Below are positions 11,173 through 64,000 of a DNA stretch of 64,000 nt, piece after piece. Both the position numbers and the translations under genes were made by a program. Within the stretch, counting starts at the first letter, position 1. Each line of letters starts with the position of its first letter. This stretch comes from Ignavibacteriota bacterium (GTDB lineage: Bacteria > Bacteroidota > Ignavibacteria > Ignavibacteriales > Melioribacteraceae), in assembly GCA_013112585.1 (NCBI GenBank), contig JABFGH010000003.1:1-64000 (forward strand), in the 5' to 3' direction. Under the pieces are notes generated by a model. The model was not told the DNA's origin. It did no database searches and saw nothing but the letters and a program-made list of their open reading frames with translations.

Positions 11173-11901
11173 GTGAAAAAGTATAGAGATAAATCGCCCG
11201 AAGAGGTTATTAAACTTGTAACGATTGAAATTATTGAACGTGCAATTAAACTGGGCAAAAAGAAAAACAGAACTGTCTTCATCAGCAAAACATCGGGCGG
11301 TAAAGGTACTGATGTTAATACCCTTAATCCTAAAACTAAAGAAGGGCAAATCAATCTTGAACAATTTTTCAAATCTACCCGCAGGCACTACACTTTTTCC
11401 GGATTAGGTTCGCCTGAAGAACCTGATGCCATAAACTGGCGAATTTTAAATTTACCGTTTGGTAGAAGGATGCTTTTAGTGTTTCAAGTTTTACTTTCAT
11501 TCGTTTTAAAAGGCACGCCATTTAAAAACAAGCTTTACAGATGGATGGGAATACATGTCGGCAAAGGTGCGGAAATTATGCAGATGGTCTGGCTCGATCA
11601 CTTTAGACCGGAACTAATTTTTATCGGTGAGAATGCTTTGCTTGGTGCATTCACTCAACTAACAGTGCACGCCTACGAAGGATCGGGCAAGTTTCGTTAC
11701 GGGTTAATTGAAATTGGTAATAACTGTAAAATGGGAGCTGGAACGGGAATGGGACCAATACTGATAGAAGATAATGTAAGAACTTTGCCGGGTGCGACTC
11801 TTTCTCCTTATTTTTCTAGAATAAAAGCCGGATCGATCGTTGGTTGGAATCCGCCGAATGTAAAAGAAGTGAAGAGTGTAGATGTGAAAGGTGAGAAGTG
11901 A
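11173..11901 (+). CDS. Left-handed beta-helix acyltransferase-like protein
   Basis: 242 residues. The C-terminal half holds hexapeptide-type turns (IHVGKGAEIMQMVWLD, LIFIGENALLGAFTQL, LIEIGNNCKMGAGTGMGPI, ILIEDNVRTLPGATL), which build a left-handed beta helix as in maltose/serine O-acetyltransferase-like enzymes. The first 80 residues are basic and not recognised; a hydrophobic segment near residues 100-116 (MLLVFQVLLSFVLKG) may sit at the membrane. The start is a GTG directly after an in-frame stop and has no clear ribosome site, so it is uncertain. The acyl substrate is unknown. Confidence 0.75.
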   Translation: MKKYRDKSPEEVIKLVTIEIIERAIKLGKKKNRTVFISKTSGGKGTDVNTLNPKTKEGQINLEQFFKSTRRHYTFSGLGSPEEPDAINWRILNLPFGRRMLLVFQVLLSFVLKGTPFKNKLYRWMGIHVGKGAEIMQMVWLDHFRPELIFIGENALLGAFTQLTVHAYEGSGKFRYGLIEIGNNCKMGAGTGMGPILIEDNVRTLPGATLSPYFSRIKAGSIVGWNPPNVKEVKSVDVKGEK

Positions 11902-11925
11902 GAAGTGAAATGGCAAAGGTGAAAT

Positions 11926-11975
11926 GGCAAGCATGCATTCATGCAATCATTCAACCATGCATCTTTTCATCCCTG
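11926..11975. repeat. ATGCA/CATTCA dispersed repeat
   Basis: A run of overlapping ATGCA and CATTCA words (AAGCATGCATTCATGCAA, then ATCATTCAACCATGC, then ATCTTTTCATCCCTGC) in the gap before the ABC-F gene end. The same composite sequence flanks the four-helix-bundle gene at 33036-33079 and 33549-33600, which marks it as a dispersed repeat family and not simple low complexity. Confidence 0.6.
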
Positions 11976-13853
11976 CATTTCAGCAATTTTCTCTAACTCC
12001 TCCCATCGCTCATAAAGTTTTTGAACTTTAGCTTTTGCCTGCTCCAATTCCAAATTAAGTTCATTTGTCTTGTCAGCATATTTATCATAAAAATCTTTTG
12101 ATGAAAATATCGACTCAATCCTTTCAACATTTTCCTCCGCTTTCAAAATATTCTCTTCAATTGTTTCCAGTTCTTTTTTCTCTTTCCATGTTAATTTCCT
12201 TACTTTTTCTTTAACCCTGGTATCACCTTTTTTATTTTTGCTATTAGCAGGTTTTAATTCCTTTTTACGGCTCTTTCTTTTTTCAATATAGTAATCGTAA
12301 TCTCCTTCACTAAAATAAATTTCACCGTCACCTTCAAAAGCTAAAATGCCGTTACAGACGCGGTTTAAAAAATACCTGTCATGCGAAACGACAACAACAC
12401 ACCCATCAAAGGCGAGCAGCGCTTCTTCAAGTATTCTCAATGTCGGTAAATCCAAATCGTTTGTCGGTTCATCAAGCATTAAAAAGTTGCCGCCGTTTTT
12501 TAGTATGCGGGCAAGTGTAAGTCTGCTTTTTTCTCCGCCGGAAAGCCTGCCAACAATTGTATTTATTCTTTCATCAGTAAAAAGAAATTTTTTTAGGTAG
12601 CTCCAAACTTTCATTTGCTGATTGCCGAATTTGATAAATGTATTTCCCTCGCCTATCGCTTCAATCACCGTATCTTCATCATTCAGCAATAATCTCGATT
12701 GATCAACATAATTGAATTCAGTTTTTTCACCGATCTCAATTATTCCATCGTCCGGAGTAATTTCACCGAGTAGAAGTTTTAGCAATGTAGTTTTACCAAC
12801 ACCATTTTTACCAACAATACCTAATCTTCTGCCGGGAGTAAAAACAAAGTGCAAGCCGTCAATTAATTTTTTACCGCCAAGCTTTTTTCCAACTCCTTTT
12901 AATTCAAGAATATTTTTACCCAGCTTTTCCGCAGGAGGGATTACCATTTCTACATCGAGTTCAACTTCAGTATTTTCTTGAGCCGCTGTTTCGTAGTATG
13001 TATCGAGCCGGCTCTTTGCTTTTGTAGTTCTAGCCTTGGGTCCCCTTACAACCCATTCCAGTTCCCGTCTTAAAAAGTTCTGACGCTTTCTCTCTTCAAC
13101 TTCTTTTATTGCTAACCGCTCTGCTTTGTTAACCAGGTAATCTGTATAATTTCCTCTGTGCGAAATGAACTGTCCATTCGTAAGTTCAACAATTCTGTTT
13201 GCAATTCTATCTAAAAAGTATCGATCGTGAGTAACAAAAATGCATGTGCCTTTGTATGCGGCTAAAAATTTTTCAATCCATTCGATCGATTCAGTATCAA
13301 GATGGTTAGTCGGTTCATCTAATATAAGCAGATCGGGCTGAGAAACTATTGATCTGCAAAGCGCCACCCTTCTCTTTTCGCCGCCGGATAAGGTATCGAT
13401 TGCTCTATCAGCCTCAGGTGCATTTAACGATTTTAATAATTGATTGATCTTCTTCTCTAAATTCCAGCCGTCGAGATATTGAATTTTTTCCTCAAGAATA
13501 TTTCTTTTAGGTGAGTCAAATGGAAGTGATTCATATTCATCAATTAAAACAAGAATGTTATCGGCACCGGCTAAAACGTTTTCATAAACATTTTTAAATT
13601 CATCAAGTGTGAACTCTTGAGTTAAAAATCCTACAACGAGTTCTTTCTTCTTTGCCACATTACCGGAATCGGGTTCCATTAAGCCGGAAATTATTTTTAA
13701 GAATGTTGATTTACCAACTCCGTTTCTACCGACAAGTCCAATCCGATCTCCTTCATGTACACTTAGCGATGCATTATCAAGAATGATCTGCTCGCCAAAA
13801 TGAACATCCAATTCCATTGCGGTTAGTATTACCGGAGTTACATTGTTTTTCAT
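11967..13853 (-). CDS. ABC-F family ATPase (Uup/EttA type)
   Basis: 628-residue protein with two ABC ATPase domains and no membrane domain. Domain 1: Walker A GLVGRNGVGKST, signature LSGGEKRRVALC, Walker B LLILDEPTNHLD. Domain 2: GIVGKNGVGKTT, LSGGEKSRLTLA, MLDEPTNDLD. The linker between them (about 245-310) is the arginine-rich interdomain arm, and the last 110 residues form a coiled coil (KKELETIEENILKAEENVER). ABC-F proteins act on ribosomes, and Uup-type members with a C-terminal coiled coil also bind DNA junctions. Its ATG start is in an AT-rich region; it is monocistronic. Confidence 0.93.
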   Translation of the reverse strand: MKNNVTPVILTAMELDVHFGEQIILDNASLSVHEGDRIGLVGRNGVGKSTFLKIISGLMEPDSGNVAKKKELVVGFLTQEFTLDEFKNVYENVLAGADNILVLIDEYESLPFDSPKRNILEEKIQYLDGWNLEKKINQLLKSLNAPEADRAIDTLSGGEKRRVALCRSIVSQPDLLILDEPTNHLDTESIEWIEKFLAAYKGTCIFVTHDRYFLDRIANRIVELTNGQFISHRGNYTDYLVNKAERLAIKEVEERKRQNFLRRELEWVVRGPKARTTKAKSRLDTYYETAAQENTEVELDVEMVIPPAEKLGKNILELKGVGKKLGGKKLIDGLHFVFTPGRRLGIVGKNGVGKTTLLKLLLGEITPDDGIIEIGEKTEFNYVDQSRLLLNDEDTVIEAIGEGNTFIKFGNQQMKVWSYLKKFLFTDERINTIVGRLSGGEKSRLTLARILKNGGNFLMLDEPTNDLDLPTLRILEEALLAFDGCVVVVSHDRYFLNRVCNGILAFEGDGEIYFSEGDYDYYIEKRKSRKKELKPANSKNKKGDTRVKEKVRKLTWKEKKELETIEENILKAEENVERIESIFSSKDFYDKYADKTNELNLELEQAKAKVQKLYERWEELEKIAEMQG

Positions 13854-59624: not shown

Positions 59625-59903
59625 TCAAATACTATGTCTAAGTTCACTATCACTTCTTTCCTTTAAAATTATTTTTATTAAAGATTGATAGGGGACATCA
59701 CGCTTATTAGCAATTATTTTTATATCATTTAATAAAAACTCCGGCAGCCTTAAAGAAATAGTTTTAGTTGAAGGCTTTAATTTTGGGAATGACACTGATT
59801 TCGAAGACTTCCAATCTAAATAATCAGTTGAATCATTTTTTGACCAGAATTCTCTTTCTTCATTTTCAGTATTAAGTTTCGGTATTTTTTTTAGTTTCTT
59901 CAT
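59625..59903 (-). CDS. CopG/BrnA-like antitoxin
   Basis: 92 residues. The C-terminal half is a ribbon-helix-helix of the CopG/BrnA kind: KTISLRLPEFLLNDIKIIAN, KRDVPYQSLIKIIL. The N-terminal half is acidic and Trp-rich (REFWSKNDSTDYLDWKSSKS), as in BrnA-type partner-binding segments. No BrnT-like toxin frame is next to it; its upstream neighbour is the HigBA pair 49 bases away. It could be an orphan or part of a three-gene module. Confidence 0.75.
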   Translation of the reverse strand: MKKLKKIPKLNTENEEREFWSKNDSTDYLDWKSSKSVSFPKLKPSTKTISLRLPEFLLNDIKIIANKRDVPYQSLIKIILKERSDSELRHSI

Positions 59904-59952: not shown

Positions 59953-60372
59953 TCACTTATTCTCAATAAACACAGAAGGGGAAACAGAAAACATTTTACT
60001 AAGAATTACTACCTGCCTCAAATTTAGCTTTCTTTTCCCATTTATAATTTCTGAAACAACACCTTGACTTCCAATCTCACTTAAATCACTTTGCTTCAAT
60101 CCATGTTCTTCTAAAAGAAATTTTAATACCCCAATTGGGTCGCCGGCTGGCTCTTCAATTTTTCTATCTTCATAATCTTTTACTAAAGTTCCAAGAGTAT
60201 CAATTAATGATTCCTTAACCGGATCACTTTTATCACTTACTTCATCAATTAATTGATCCAGCATTCTCACCGTTCTTTTATATTGCCGTTCAGTATGAAT
60301 TGTTGACACAACTTTTGAAACTGTCTGCCAAACTTTAATTGTTCTTCTTATTTCATTTTTTTCTTTTATCAT
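59953..60372 (-). CDS. HigA-like antitoxin, helix-turn-helix
   Basis: 139 residues from the ATG at 60372, or 145 from an ATG at 60390 that overlaps the toxin gene. The C-terminal helix-turn-helix is IGVLKFLLEEHGLKQSDLSE, IGSQGVVSEIINGKRKLNLR. The N-terminal half is helical and charged, including a segment (LDQLIDEVSDKSDPVKESL) typical of HigA antitoxins. It neutralises the toxin encoded upstream and represses the operon. The order toxin before antitoxin is the HigBA arrangement. Confidence 0.85.
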   Translation of the reverse strand: MIKEKNEIRRTIKVWQTVSKVVSTIHTERQYKRTVRMLDQLIDEVSDKSDPVKESLIDTLGTLVKDYEDRKIEEPAGDPIGVLKFLLEEHGLKQSDLSEIGSQGVVSEIINGKRKLNLRQVVILSKMFSVSPSVFIENK

Positions 60373-60377
60373 TATTT

Positions 60378-60665
60378 TTATTCCTTCCATTTTCCTTTAT
60401 CATATTCTTTGTGTGATAAAATATGCCGGATATAAATTCGTTTTGCATGGTAAACTATATAAGCAATTAGTCGATATTTATTACCTCCGATATTAAATAC
60501 CGTAAATTTTCCAACTTGATCCGCTTTGGGAAAAGTTTTTCTTAACTCCGAAAATGAACTATAATTACTCTGTTTAACAATGCGGTACCATCTGTCTAAT
60601 GGCTCCTGTGAATCGGGATGTTTTTTGCTGAACTCTAATAACCGTTTACGGGAGATAATATGCAT
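60378..60665 (-). CDS. HigB-like toxin (mRNA interferase family)
   Basis: 95 residues, RelE/ParE-like HigB. MHIISRKRLLEFSKKHPDSQ, the domain centre FPKADQVGKFTVFNIGGNKY, RLIAYIVYHAKRIYIRHILS with the basic/His active residues, and HKEYDKGKWKE at the C-terminus all match the family. It cleaves mRNA on ribosomes when free of HigA. The gene is followed directly by the antitoxin, with start/stop overlap or a five-base gap depending on which antitoxin ATG is used. Confidence 0.9.
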   Translation of the reverse strand: MHIISRKRLLEFSKKHPDSQEPLDRWYRIVKQSNYSSFSELRKTFPKADQVGKFTVFNIGGNKYRLIAYIVYHAKRIYIRHILSHKEYDKGKWKE

Positions 60666-60836: not shown

Positions 60837-61871
60837 TTATGTATTTCCGTTCACATAGTCTTGCAATATTTTCCTAGCAGTTTGTTCTGCTTTAGTTTTG
60901 CTTGCATTATAAAGTGATTGTGAATTATATTGTCGAAGATTATCAATATCTCTGCCTTTACGAAACCTTACATTCCATTTACCATTATTTCCTTCAAATA
61001 AAGAAACACTAATATTCATATCTCCTTTTATAGCATACCACCTTATTCCATTAGATATTTTTCTTTCATCCCAATCTACTTCAACTGTTAGTCTTTCAAG
61101 TGAGTGACGCATTTCAAGAGCAGTTTGATAACGCTCTTTTTTATTTATATTGAGCGCCTTGTTGATAAGTAATCTGAAAGACCTTGGAATAAAAAAGCGA
61201 TAACTAGTTCGGTCAGGAAATGTCCCCGCTATAGTTCTGTCCCTTACTTCACTAAACGGAACGTTGGAAATATAGCTATCCCCATTTACCAAGCGATAAA
61301 GAGTTGCCCCACAAGCATAAATATCTGACTGAGCTGAAAATTTTTCAAAGGATGTTACTTCGGGAGCCAAATGTAAAACATATTGGTAATCTTTTATTGA
61401 GGATAAATCAAGAGCGGCAATACTTGGCAAGGCAAGTCCAAAATCTGAAAGTTTGCCTTCAGATGCATTTCCAATCATTATGTTTGCAGGTTTAATATCT
61501 CTATGAATTATAGCTTTTGAATGAGAATATTCTAGGGCTCTTAAAACATCAATCATAAGCTTCTTAGCACGTGAAAGTTTTACATATGCCCCCTTTACTT
61601 CATCTTCTAAACTTCCATTTTTAAGATATTCCATTTTAACATAAATTCTATCATCGTTCATTGCGCCGGTATCAAGTACTTTAACAATATTTGGATGCTC
61701 AGTTAATTGTAGAGTTTGGGCTTCGGAATAAAAATTATTTTGGTCTATGACTTTATCTTTAGGAATAAGTTTGACCGCACATTCAGAATCCAAACCAATG
61801 TCAACGGCTCTCCATACTTCACCGAAATGCCCAGAACCAAGTCTATCTAAAAAATCAAAGGAAACAGCCAT
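60837..61871 (-). CDS. Serine/threonine protein kinase with C-terminal domain
   Basis: 344 residues from the ATG at 61871 (a TTG at 61889 would overlap the upstream gene). Kinase domain in the first 260: LGSGHFGEVWRAVD, ECAVKLIPKD, catalytic HRDIKPANIMIGNA, SDFGLALPSI, APEVTSFEKFSAQSDIYACG. It lacks a transmembrane segment, unlike most bacterial PASTA kinases. The remaining 80 residues (WDERKISNGIRWYAIKG, ISVSLFEGNNGKWNVRFRKG, then a helix) form a small unrecognised domain. It is two bases downstream of the RNase H-fold gene stop, so the pair is co-translated. Substrate unknown. Confidence 0.9.
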   Translation of the reverse strand: MAVSFDFLDRLGSGHFGEVWRAVDIGLDSECAVKLIPKDKVIDQNNFYSEAQTLQLTEHPNIVKVLDTGAMNDDRIYVKMEYLKNGSLEDEVKGAYVKLSRAKKLMIDVLRALEYSHSKAIIHRDIKPANIMIGNASEGKLSDFGLALPSIAALDLSSIKDYQYVLHLAPEVTSFEKFSAQSDIYACGATLYRLVNGDSYISNVPFSEVRDRTIAGTFPDRTSYRFFIPRSFRLLINKALNINKKERYQTALEMRHSLERLTVEVDWDERKISNGIRWYAIKGDMNISVSLFEGNNGKWNVRFRKGRDIDNLRQYNSQSLYNASKTKAEQTARKILQDYVNGNT

Positions 61872-61873
61872 AA

Positions 61874-62329
61874 CTATAAACAACTCCAAGCAACTAAAAT
61901 TGCTTCATTTATTTTCTCAGATGTTTTCGCATAGTTTACAACTGATGTTATATCAATATCAGTCACCAAATATTTTGCCTTTCCTTTACAACCCAAATCT
62001 TTAGCAATAGTTGCTTTAACTTTTCTAAAAACATTTTCATTTCCTTTGTTAGCTCCGAGAAGAAAAACGATTGCCTCATTTTCAGCACGACTTGTATAGA
62101 GTTTTCCTTTTTGGGCCATAGCTTCTGCACCCTTAATTCCCCATTTATCAATTTTGTACTTTCTGGATAACTCATCAAGTTCTTGATAAAACCACTTTAA
62201 TTCAGCTGGTCTTGAAAAACCATTTGGGAAGTGAATCGTACCAGAATCAACTAAAACTGGAGAGTTTTTATTACCATCAACGATTGCAAAAGAATAATCT
62301 TTGTTACTACACCTTAATCCAATGACCAT
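61874..62329 (-). CDS. Small RNase H-fold (RuvC/DUF3010-like) protein, kinase partner
   Basis: 151 residues. It resembles a RuvC/RNase H fold: first strand pair MVIGLRCSNKDYSFAIVDG, a middle KWGIKGAEAMAQKGKLYTS, and a last helix SEKINEAILVAWSCL. The usual catalytic Asp after the first Gly is replaced by Leu-Arg-Cys and the last Asp by Asn-Glu, so it may be inactive as a nuclease; Glu in GAE and NEAI are retained. The gene comes first, with the kinase right after. I do not know this pair from a named system. The fold call is by eye. Confidence 0.6.
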   Translation of the reverse strand: MVIGLRCSNKDYSFAIVDGNKNSPVLVDSGTIHFPNGFSRPAELKWFYQELDELSRKYKIDKWGIKGAEAMAQKGKLYTSRAENEAIVFLLGANKGNENVFRKVKATIAKDLGCKGKAKYLVTDIDITSVVNYAKTSEKINEAILVAWSCL

Positions 62330-62552: not shown

Positions 62553-64000
62553 TCAAGTCAAATTTTTAATTTCTAATATTTCAACATACTTATCCAAATT
62601 ACCTACTTTAACAGTTTCACCAACTGATTTTTCTTTCAAGGAAATTGCTAATGGTGATTGTAAACTAATTTCTTTAATACCATTTGACATATCATAATTT
62701 TTGCGAACATTTGTAACCAACCGCACGGTAATATCCTTCCCCGAATTTATATACTTAACTTTCACTATACTATTTGACATTACGATATCTTTACGCTGTA
62801 TTGGTAGCACAATTTTCTTTTCACTAATCGCTTCCACAGTTTCTTTCAAATCTTTTTGAAGACTCGGTGCTACTTTCTTATCTTCATTCTCAATTATCGA
62901 AATATTATCAGTAAATGCTAATGCAATATCGGATTTCTCTTTAATTTCTGATTTGCCATTATTCTCAATGTTTTTAATAAATTCAACTAATATTTTTGTT
63001 TCTCTTTTGGGATTTCTCCACCAATTTGTGCTCCATATTCTATGAAAAACAAAACCGTGTCCTTCAAGTATTTTTTGTCTATGTCTGTCATATAAATATG
63101 CTTCTTGACTTGAGTGATATGTTGCTCCATCACATTCAATTGCTATTTTGGGAACTCCAATAATTTTTGAATCATAAACTAAATCAATTCTAAATCCTGC
63201 AAATTGCAATTGTGGAATTATTTTAGTTTCATCAAAATGGTCAGTTAATACTTCATAGACTTCTTCTTCAAATGGAGATTCAAGGTCTTCGTTTAAAATA
63301 CCGAGTGTAGAACTTTTAGTTGTATTGTCAGAGAGTGTATTTAGAATTGCTAATCTTTGTTCTTTGTCATTATCGCTCACAGATTTACAATAAGCTAAAT
63401 AAGCAAAGAAAACAGCTCGTCTATTATTTGAATCTTCGATTGATAAATATTCTTTATAGTTTAGAAATACTTCCTCTGGAATAGAAGAACATACATATAT
63501 TTTATATTTTGCTCTTGTTATAATTACATTTAATAATTTGTATCCTTTTTGATGATTTATTGAGCCAAAACGATGTGCAAACTTACCGTCTTTATTTATG
63601 CCATAAGTCGTGGTTAAAATTATTACATCTCGTTCATCTCCTTGAATATTTTCCAAGTTTTTAACGAATAAGCCATTCTCTTCAAGTTCCAATATCTTTT
63701 CATTGAACTCCTCATAGCTATCAAATTTACGCCTTTCGTTAATTTTACTTAAAATAAGGTTTCGCTGATGAATATTAAATGTAGCAATACCAACAGATGG
63801 ATATTCACCATTTGGTAAACGATTAATATTATTTTCTATGATAGACAAAACAGTTTCTGCTTCAACTTCATTTGTGTGGTTAGAATAAGTGCCATTTACT
63901 TGAATATATTTGATTGGAGTATATTCAAATCCATTTGGTAAAGGTTTTAATCTTTGATTGTAAAAAGCATAATTTGAAAAGTCAATTAAATAAGGATGTC
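62553..64000 (-). CDS. SF1 helicase-nuclease with GreA/GreB-like end (partial, cut by window edge)
   Basis: The frame is open to the window edge at 64000, so about 482 C-terminal residues of a longer protein are seen. Parts in order: helicase motif IV, HPYLIDFSNYAFYNQRLKPL; motif V, LENIQGDERDVIILTTTYG; motif VI, KLLNVIITRAKYKIYV; then a MTES_1575/Vsr-like nuclease domain, FRIDLVYDSK, IAIECDGATYHSSQEA, YDRHRQKILEGHGFVFHRIW; then a GreA/GreB-like domain, VKVKYINSGKDITVRLV, EISLQSPLAISLKEKSVGE. SF1-MTES_1575 proteins often carry an N-terminal DUF4011 and are found in defence islands. The GreA-like tail is the unusual part. The N-terminus is missing. Confidence 0.88.
   Translation of the reverse strand, partial: HPYLIDFSNYAFYNQRLKPLPNGFEYTPIKYIQVNGTYSNHTNEVEAETVLSIIENNINRLPNGEYPSVGIATFNIHQRNLILSKINERRKFDSYEEFNEKILELEENGLFVKNLENIQGDERDVIILTTTYGINKDGKFAHRFGSINHQKGYKLLNVIITRAKYKIYVCSSIPEEVFLNYKEYLSIEDSNNRRAVFFAYLAYCKSVSDNDKEQRLAILNTLSDNTTKSSTLGILNEDLESPFEEEVYEVLTDHFDETKIIPQLQFAGFRIDLVYDSKIIGVPKIAIECDGATYHSSQEAYLYDRHRQKILEGHGFVFHRIWSTNWWRNPKRETKILVEFIKNIENNGKSEIKEKSDIALAFTDNISIIENEDKKVAPSLQKDLKETVEAISEKKIVLPIQRKDIVMSNSIVKVKYINSGKDITVRLVTNVRKNYDMSNGIKEISLQSPLAISLKEKSVGETVKVGNLDKYVEILEIKNLT

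Follow-up and report, generated by a model that had tools for sequence, protein, structure and literature searches.

Stk of Shiga phage 933W, whose primary study is reportedly that of Friedman et al. 2011, is the closest characterised relative of a two-gene unit that we analysed in a 64,000-nucleotide stretch of an Ignavibacteriota genome (contig JABFGH010000003.1 of assembly GCA_013112585.1, positions 1 to 64,000; hereafter the window), in which a gene for a small RuvC-like protein is directly followed by a gene for a soluble protein kinase. The available sections of the literature describe Stk as a eukaryote-like tyrosine kinase that is cotranscribed with cI and has limited if any activity without infection; infection by phage HK97 activates Stk, which then aborts HK97 growth (PMC3681748, PMC3564112, PMC6356687, PMC8008677). 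We find that the window unit is neither a chance pair nor an ordinary kinase gene: it forms a new Stk-like branch, with a partner that is constant and unstudied. Both of its genes lie on the minus strand, with a gap of two bases between the stop codon of the partner and the ATG of the kinase:

61874-62329, minus strand: RuvC-like partner gene, an open reading frame of 151 amino acids
60837-61871, minus strand: soluble protein kinase gene, an open reading frame of 344 amino acids from its ATG
60840-61088, minus strand: C-terminal kinase tail (residues 262-344)

The window kinase is of the same family as Stk, C-terminal tail included, and a RuvC-like gene lies directly upstream of the kinase in the window, in EDL933 and in phage phi24B. 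The record of the phi24B immunity region names its kinase stk, 'similar to bacteriophage 933W', and the pairs of EDL933 and phi24B are the same 1502 bases, 100% identical; in EDL933 the pair is flanked by a CI-like repressor with a DUF3024 gene on one side and by CIII on the other, a position that we read as the 933W prophage. The window pair differs from this arrangement in lying outside a recognisable prophage and not in a cI operon (its neighbours are HigBA, a CopG antitoxin and a PDC-S37 helicase), and in having no clear third small gene, whereas the EDL933 pair is accompanied by a third, tiny gene. Since no prophage cI operon surrounds it, we file the window pair as a Stk relative and not as a 933W-type prophage unit. 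Between the window and the enterobacterial branch the kinases are ~30% identical and the partners 21-23%, and the kinase motif HRD of the window is replaced by HFD in the enterobacterial branch.

Residues 7-252 of the window kinase match the Pfam family Pkinase (E-value 3.5e-44) with intact HRD and DFG motifs, and Lys34, Glu50, Asp125, Asn130 and Asp143 are invariant across 16 pair kinases. The ~90 residues after the kinase domain belong to no family, their sole Pfam match being a sub-threshold one to DUF7543 (E-value 0.15). A profile built from 16 pair kinases, the window's included (347 positions), matched the window kinase over positions 8-343, and in the six best kinases from 395 genomes of the window's phylum it reached into the tail (to position 341-344 in five and 311 in one); most profile matches of lower-scoring kinases ended near 270-300. 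Within the tail, Trp267 is kept in 28 of 29 pair kinases and a Lys or Arg at position 305 likewise in 28 of 29. When a tree was built with 25 other kinases as the outgroup (24 of the window's phylum and L011), the pair kinases, the Stk branch included, formed a single group relative to these (support 100/99).

The association of the two genes was evident from both directions of search. A kinase search of plasmids yielded five loci in which a hypothetical protein of ~153 amino acids precedes the kinase; among the six hits examined of the 40 listed (H1, H3, H4, H5, H6 and H19), only H6, a 1096-residue kinase of Rhodococcus, has no partner. Starting from the partner, we collected 55 loci (45 viral contigs, four of the 395 genomes, four alphaproteobacteria and two database hits, L015 and L016), and a kinase lies directly downstream on the same strand in every one of them. 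These 55 are made up of 51 loci from a 57-locus set plus L085-L088, with L007-L010, L012 and L014 excluded as they had been found via the kinase; the 57-locus set leaves out the window copies (L001, L002), duplicates (L013, L017-L020) and matches below 45 bits. Throughout the 57-locus set the offset between partner and kinase ranges from -8 to +4 bases, except in L051 and L057, two viral contigs in which the partner is intact and the kinase reading frame is split, through decay or sequencing error. The 14 records of a phage collection that hold the partner are the same 14 that hold a kinase match covering at least 80% of the query, and the pair occurs in 223 of 5426 complete Escherichia coli genomes, 221 of which cover at least 80% of it. 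Another 19 loci that matched the partner profile more weakly (L003-L006 and L021-L035, among which some genes were retrieved twice) encode proteins of 178-199 amino acids, a RuvC-like length, and have no adjacent kinase.

From the kinase side, the top six kinases in the 395 genomes scored from 454 to 246 bits, the next scoring 197, and all six have a partner: five are in genomes with a profile-detected partner, while upstream of the sixth (G369) lies a 153-residue gene so divergent that the profile missed it and that BLAST barely links it to the window's partner (E-value 0.012), but which we accept as a partner because of its position, length and shared ends. No partner was found within ~1.5 kb of the next-best 24 kinase loci of these genomes. 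The evolutionary distances of partners and kinases are correlated (r 0.95, n=29, none of 9999 permutations as high); since linked descent alone would give this value, it shows that the genes stay together and not that their products touch. Used alone as a query, the window's partner sequence retrieved nothing from plasmids, phages or viral contigs, and from the 395 genomes only its own copy, which is present once in the window's genome, plus four weak matches of RuvC type, whose frames are 178-191 amino acids long. One of these, L003, was rejected as a true RuvC beside a ruvA-like gene. A scan of the viral contigs with the partner of L007 also returned nothing. We conclude that the kinase and the RuvC-like gene are an obligate pair and not chance neighbours.

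The partner protein has no Pfam match; it matches a RuvC model of NCBIfam weakly (E-value 0.0038) and also PHROG 3875, 'RuvC-like Holliday junction resolvase' (E-value 3.6e-5). Across the partner family, Pfam reports RuvC in 7 of 16 members (best E-value 0.015), and a sequence-profile search of solved structures returned no RuvC. An AlphaFold2 model computed from 16 alignment rows, including 15 viral relatives, reached a predicted local distance difference test score (pLDDT) of 81.5 and a predicted template-modelling score of 0.79, whereas the prediction made without an alignment was not usable (pLDDT 40.7). The best matches of the former model in the PDB are RuvC proteins across the full length (Foldseek E-value 4e-8, template-modelling score 0.7-0.8), and VIA gave Z 18.2 over 147 residues at 2.8 Å, so that the partner is, as modelled, a full-length RuvC fold. 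A candidate for the true RuvC is encoded separately in the window's genome (G000:C9).

By aligning the partners of 29 lineages to nine RuvC proteins, we located the positions of the RuvC active site in the partner, the assignments being those of the sequence alignment and not of a residue-by-residue structural overlay:

62312-62314, minus strand: Arg6 codon, aligned with the catalytic Asp7 of RuvC
62132-62134, minus strand: Lys66 codon, aligned with the catalytic Glu67 of RuvC
61904-61906, minus strand: Glu142 codon, aligned with Asp142 of RuvC

At the place of Asp7, which is Asp in all nine RuvC proteins, 28 of 29 partners have Arg and only L121 has Asp; at that of Glu67, Glu in all nine, every one of the 29 has Lys or Arg. 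The place of Asp139 is variable among the partners, and that of Asp142 holds Asp or Glu in 28 of 29 and Asn in L121. The window's partner thus carries Arg6, Lys66, Lys139 and Glu142 in lieu of the four acidic residues Asp7, Glu67, Asp139 and Asp142, L121 has Asp, Arg and Asn at the first, second and fourth sites, respectively, and the full catalytic acidic set is kept in none of the 29 lineages. With basic residues where acidic ones bind metal, the charge of the site is inverted and cleavage of DNA is therefore not expected: judged from its residues, the partner should be a pseudo-resolvase, unable to cut DNA. That the replacements are conserved although no lineage keeps the catalytic set suggests a new function for the site rather than decay. 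A sequence-only reading of this DNA had described a coupled two-gene unit, a soluble kinase with an unrecognised tail and a partner without its first catalytic Asp; each of these observations was borne out, and the catalytic Glu proved to be replaced as well. The same reading had staked its proposal on co-occurrence of the genes in other genomes and on the fold of the small protein, and the two were found together everywhere examined from the partner's side, with a RuvC fold by predicted structure.

The kinase tree has three branches, A, B and C, and the hosts belong to at least three phyla (Pseudomonadota, Bacillota, with the host Bacillus subtilis, and the window's own). Branch A contains prophages and others, namely the immunity region of Stx phages, SPbeta-type phages, Mesorhizobium, where the pair lies beside DarT/DarG-like genes, together with three genomes from the window's phylum. 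A short gene (50-84 codons, mostly with an isoelectric point (pI) above 9) follows the kinase in each of the 20 branch-A representatives; such a short reading frame was met at 933 of 3000 random places, which puts 20 of 20 beyond chance, and related phages encode similar peptides:

third small gene of branch A: L010, after 5020; L015, 4505-4669; L089, 4005-4169; and 18 further representatives

The peptides are short and mostly basic, contain Ser, Thr or Tyr, and often have 'PY' near residue 20; a third component or a kinase substrate are possible roles for them. Its sister, branch B, consists of L039, Methylocystis, Novosphingobium and four more alphaproteobacteria, and in 4 of 7 cases (L007, L012, L085 and L039) the pair is flanked by the hsdS and hsdR genes of a type I restriction operon, the hosts of this arrangement being Methylocystis, Novosphingobium, a Rhizobiales metagenome-assembled genome and one genome of the window's phylum, that is, two phyla. 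In the same branch, a SIR2-like DUF4917 gene (PDC-S21; L086, 11535-12617) overlaps the kinase stop codon by four bases, and L088 contains a fragment of such a gene near 11581-12009. Branch C unites the window with L121, whose pair has AbiLi-like and type IIG restriction genes as neighbours; both are long branches near the base, and their joining there may be long-branch attraction. The nearest 295 genomes yielded no further close relative of the window's kinase or of L121's partner, and the unit therefore looks acquired rather than inherited in the window's group.

Around the window pair we annotated the following neighbours, which lie outside the unit:

60378-60665, minus strand: HigB toxin (PF09907, E-value 5.5e-32), 171 bases downstream of the kinase
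59953-60390, minus strand: helix-turn-helix antitoxin of HigB (PF01381, E-value 3.7e-6)
59625-59903: lone CopG-type antitoxin beside HigBA (PF12441, E-value 1e-33)
62553-64000, minus strand: 3' part of a gene with helicase, MTES_1575 nuclease and GreA/GreB C-terminal domains, matching PDC-S37

These agree with the HigBA module and the helicase-nuclease gene that had been named beforehand from the sequence. The latter gene encodes 1462 amino acids, extends beyond the window to G000:C3:66941 and matches the PADLOC candidate defence family PDC-S37 (E-value 5.7e-145); this PDC-S37/Hhe-type protein ends in a GreA/GreB C-terminal domain (PF01272, E-value 3.1e-8), an odd fusion. The CopG-type antitoxin has no evident toxin gene alongside. 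An attC-like site that had also been proposed next to the pair found no support: the 223-base gap there is single copy genome-wide in a DNA-level search at the sensitivity used, and as single-stranded DNA it folds no better than shuffled sequences (z -0.61, computed without an attC-specific model), so that an integron reading of it is not supported.

Because of the pairing, the RuvC fold, the inverted site, the homology to Stk and the defence-gene neighbourhoods, we read the two genes, as probable though well short of certain, as one abortive-infection module in which the pseudo-resolvase regulates the kinase, a chromosomal relative of the Stk unit. The partner would sit on the kinase and keep it silent, and would release or activate it on meeting a product of the invading phage's replication or recombination, be it a DNA with branches or a recombination protein of the phage. 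Once freed, the kinase would phosphorylate cell proteins and halt the infection, sacrificing the cell. The sequence-only reading had likewise thought of an anti-phage kinase, an idea strongly supported by the identity of the EDL933 pair with the stk copy of phi24B and by the abortive-infection activity ascribed to 933W Stk in the sources available, while for the window's own copy we infer from homology and neighbourhood that it would act in defence; complex formation, kinase inhibition, sensing and the nature of the trigger we infer as well. The variant was not wholly undescribed, as that reading had it, since the kinase family has a characterised member, but the accessible portions of the open-licence literature contain no mention of a RuvC-like partner of Stk or of such a kinase. 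Several observations weigh against an abortive-infection module of this design: the third small gene of the prophages has no clear counterpart in the window, whose unit may work differently; a number of neighbourhoods (e.g. L036, L038 and L088) hold no known defence gene among the scanned proteins; L121 retains the first Asp while losing other sites, so that the exact substitutions are not universal; and the pI of the partners spans 4.4-9.2 across the 29 lineages, so that net charge gives no support for general DNA binding and the wide range counts against a plain DNA sensor. The boldest step of the proposal is a recombination trigger. HK97 orf41 is reportedly the trigger of Stk; in the HK97 record (L090, 3176-3781) the gene after Gp40 is erf, for a single-strand DNA-annealing recombination protein, and by gene order gp41 would be Erf. 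That the pairs form a recombination-sensing immune family, in which a dead RuvC detects phage recombination through branched intermediates or an annealing protein, switches on a tyrosine/serine kinase and kills the cell, is conceivable but rather doubtful.

The pair could instead follow toxin-antitoxin logic, with a kinase toxic on its own and a small labile inhibitor whose synthesis is stopped by infection, freeing the kinase without any sensing of DNA. In antitoxin-toxin pairs the small gene usually comes first and the effector second, as they do here, overlapping or nearly touching, and the near silence of 933W Stk without infection, as reported in the sources cited above, fits as well; an inhibitor, however, needs less than a complete RuvC fold whose active site is rewired at specific positions and conserved through deep divergence, and the two viral loci with a broken kinase and an intact partner are equally compatible with the abortive-infection module that we favour, which leaves the toxin-antitoxin account unlikely, if worth keeping in mind. 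It is improbable that the partner is the substrate or effector, its DNA-binding or cutting activity toggled by phosphorylation. Obligate pairing and a fold known for DNA binding would suit that role, but no Ser, Thr or Tyr column reaches 85% among the 29 partners, which speaks against the partner as substrate, a role floated earlier from the sequence, and the acidic residues required for cutting are replaced.

The hsdS-pair-hsdR order of four loci and the location of the L015 and L089 pairs in the lysogeny operon, next to a cI-like gene, would be expected of a unit that has no part in defence but controls how its host element recombines, repairs its DNA or carries out type I restriction; yet some pairs (the window, L016 and L121) lie neither near hsd genes nor in an evident prophage, and the sole characterised kinase, 933W Stk, excludes a phage according to the published sections available, so we give this account very little weight. 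The rarity of the pair in the phylum, where the partner query retrieved little beyond its own copy in 395 genomes, might have pointed to two unrelated genes that touch by chance in the window's genome, an idea refuted by co-occurrence (55 of 55 partner-first loci and 6 of 6 tail-kinases paired) and to which we assign a negligible probability.

A one-gene exclusion kinase, 933W Stk, thus becomes a two- or three-gene family across at least three phyla with its constant partner named. Two fields are also linked, in that a Holliday-junction resolvase fold would be reused as a non-cutting regulator and kinase immunity would be lodged in type I restriction operons; a recombination-sensing mode of action, if true, would fill in the sensor still missing from the 933W system. 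Residues Arg6 and Lys66 and a class of trigger are thereby provided for testing.

Among other known systems, Kinase-Kinase-Phosphatase (KKP) and staphylococcal Stk2 resemble the pair as prophage or host kinases directed against phages, but differ in gene content, and the main text, as far as available, mentions no RuvC-like partner ('ruvc' occurs 0 times; PMC11341870). CapK/CapS and VapKSC follow a similar logic, in which immune operons encode a kinase that reacts to abnormal DNA, but, in the accessible part of the source, combine a GHKL kinase with a STAS-domain partner, in contrast to the eukaryotic-type kinase and RuvC fold described here (PMC13373217). The best PADLOC matches of the kinase domain are mad6 (E-value 1.1e-56) and PD-T4-6 (PDLC04042, E-value 1.2e-50). 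The match to mad6 of MADS6 is limited to the kinase domain (53-313 of 659), and the NCBIfam MAD6 score of the window kinase, 145.6 bits, lies below the cut-off of 460; PD-T4-6 is matched at 11-277 of 292, as a general kinase domain for which the library shows no cut-off, and both the kinase tail and the partner, which matches no PADLOC model, fall outside it. With the RuvC resolvase itself the partner shares the full-length fold, as modelled, but it has Arg and Lys in place of catalytic Asp7 and Glu67. PrrC, an anticodon nuclease, is an abortive module that lies within EcoprrI, a type I restriction operon; the branch-B pairs resemble it as candidate abortive modules between hsd genes and differ in being a kinase pair instead of an anticodon nuclease, and kinase immunity placed within such operons could provide a second line of defence once restriction is defeated.
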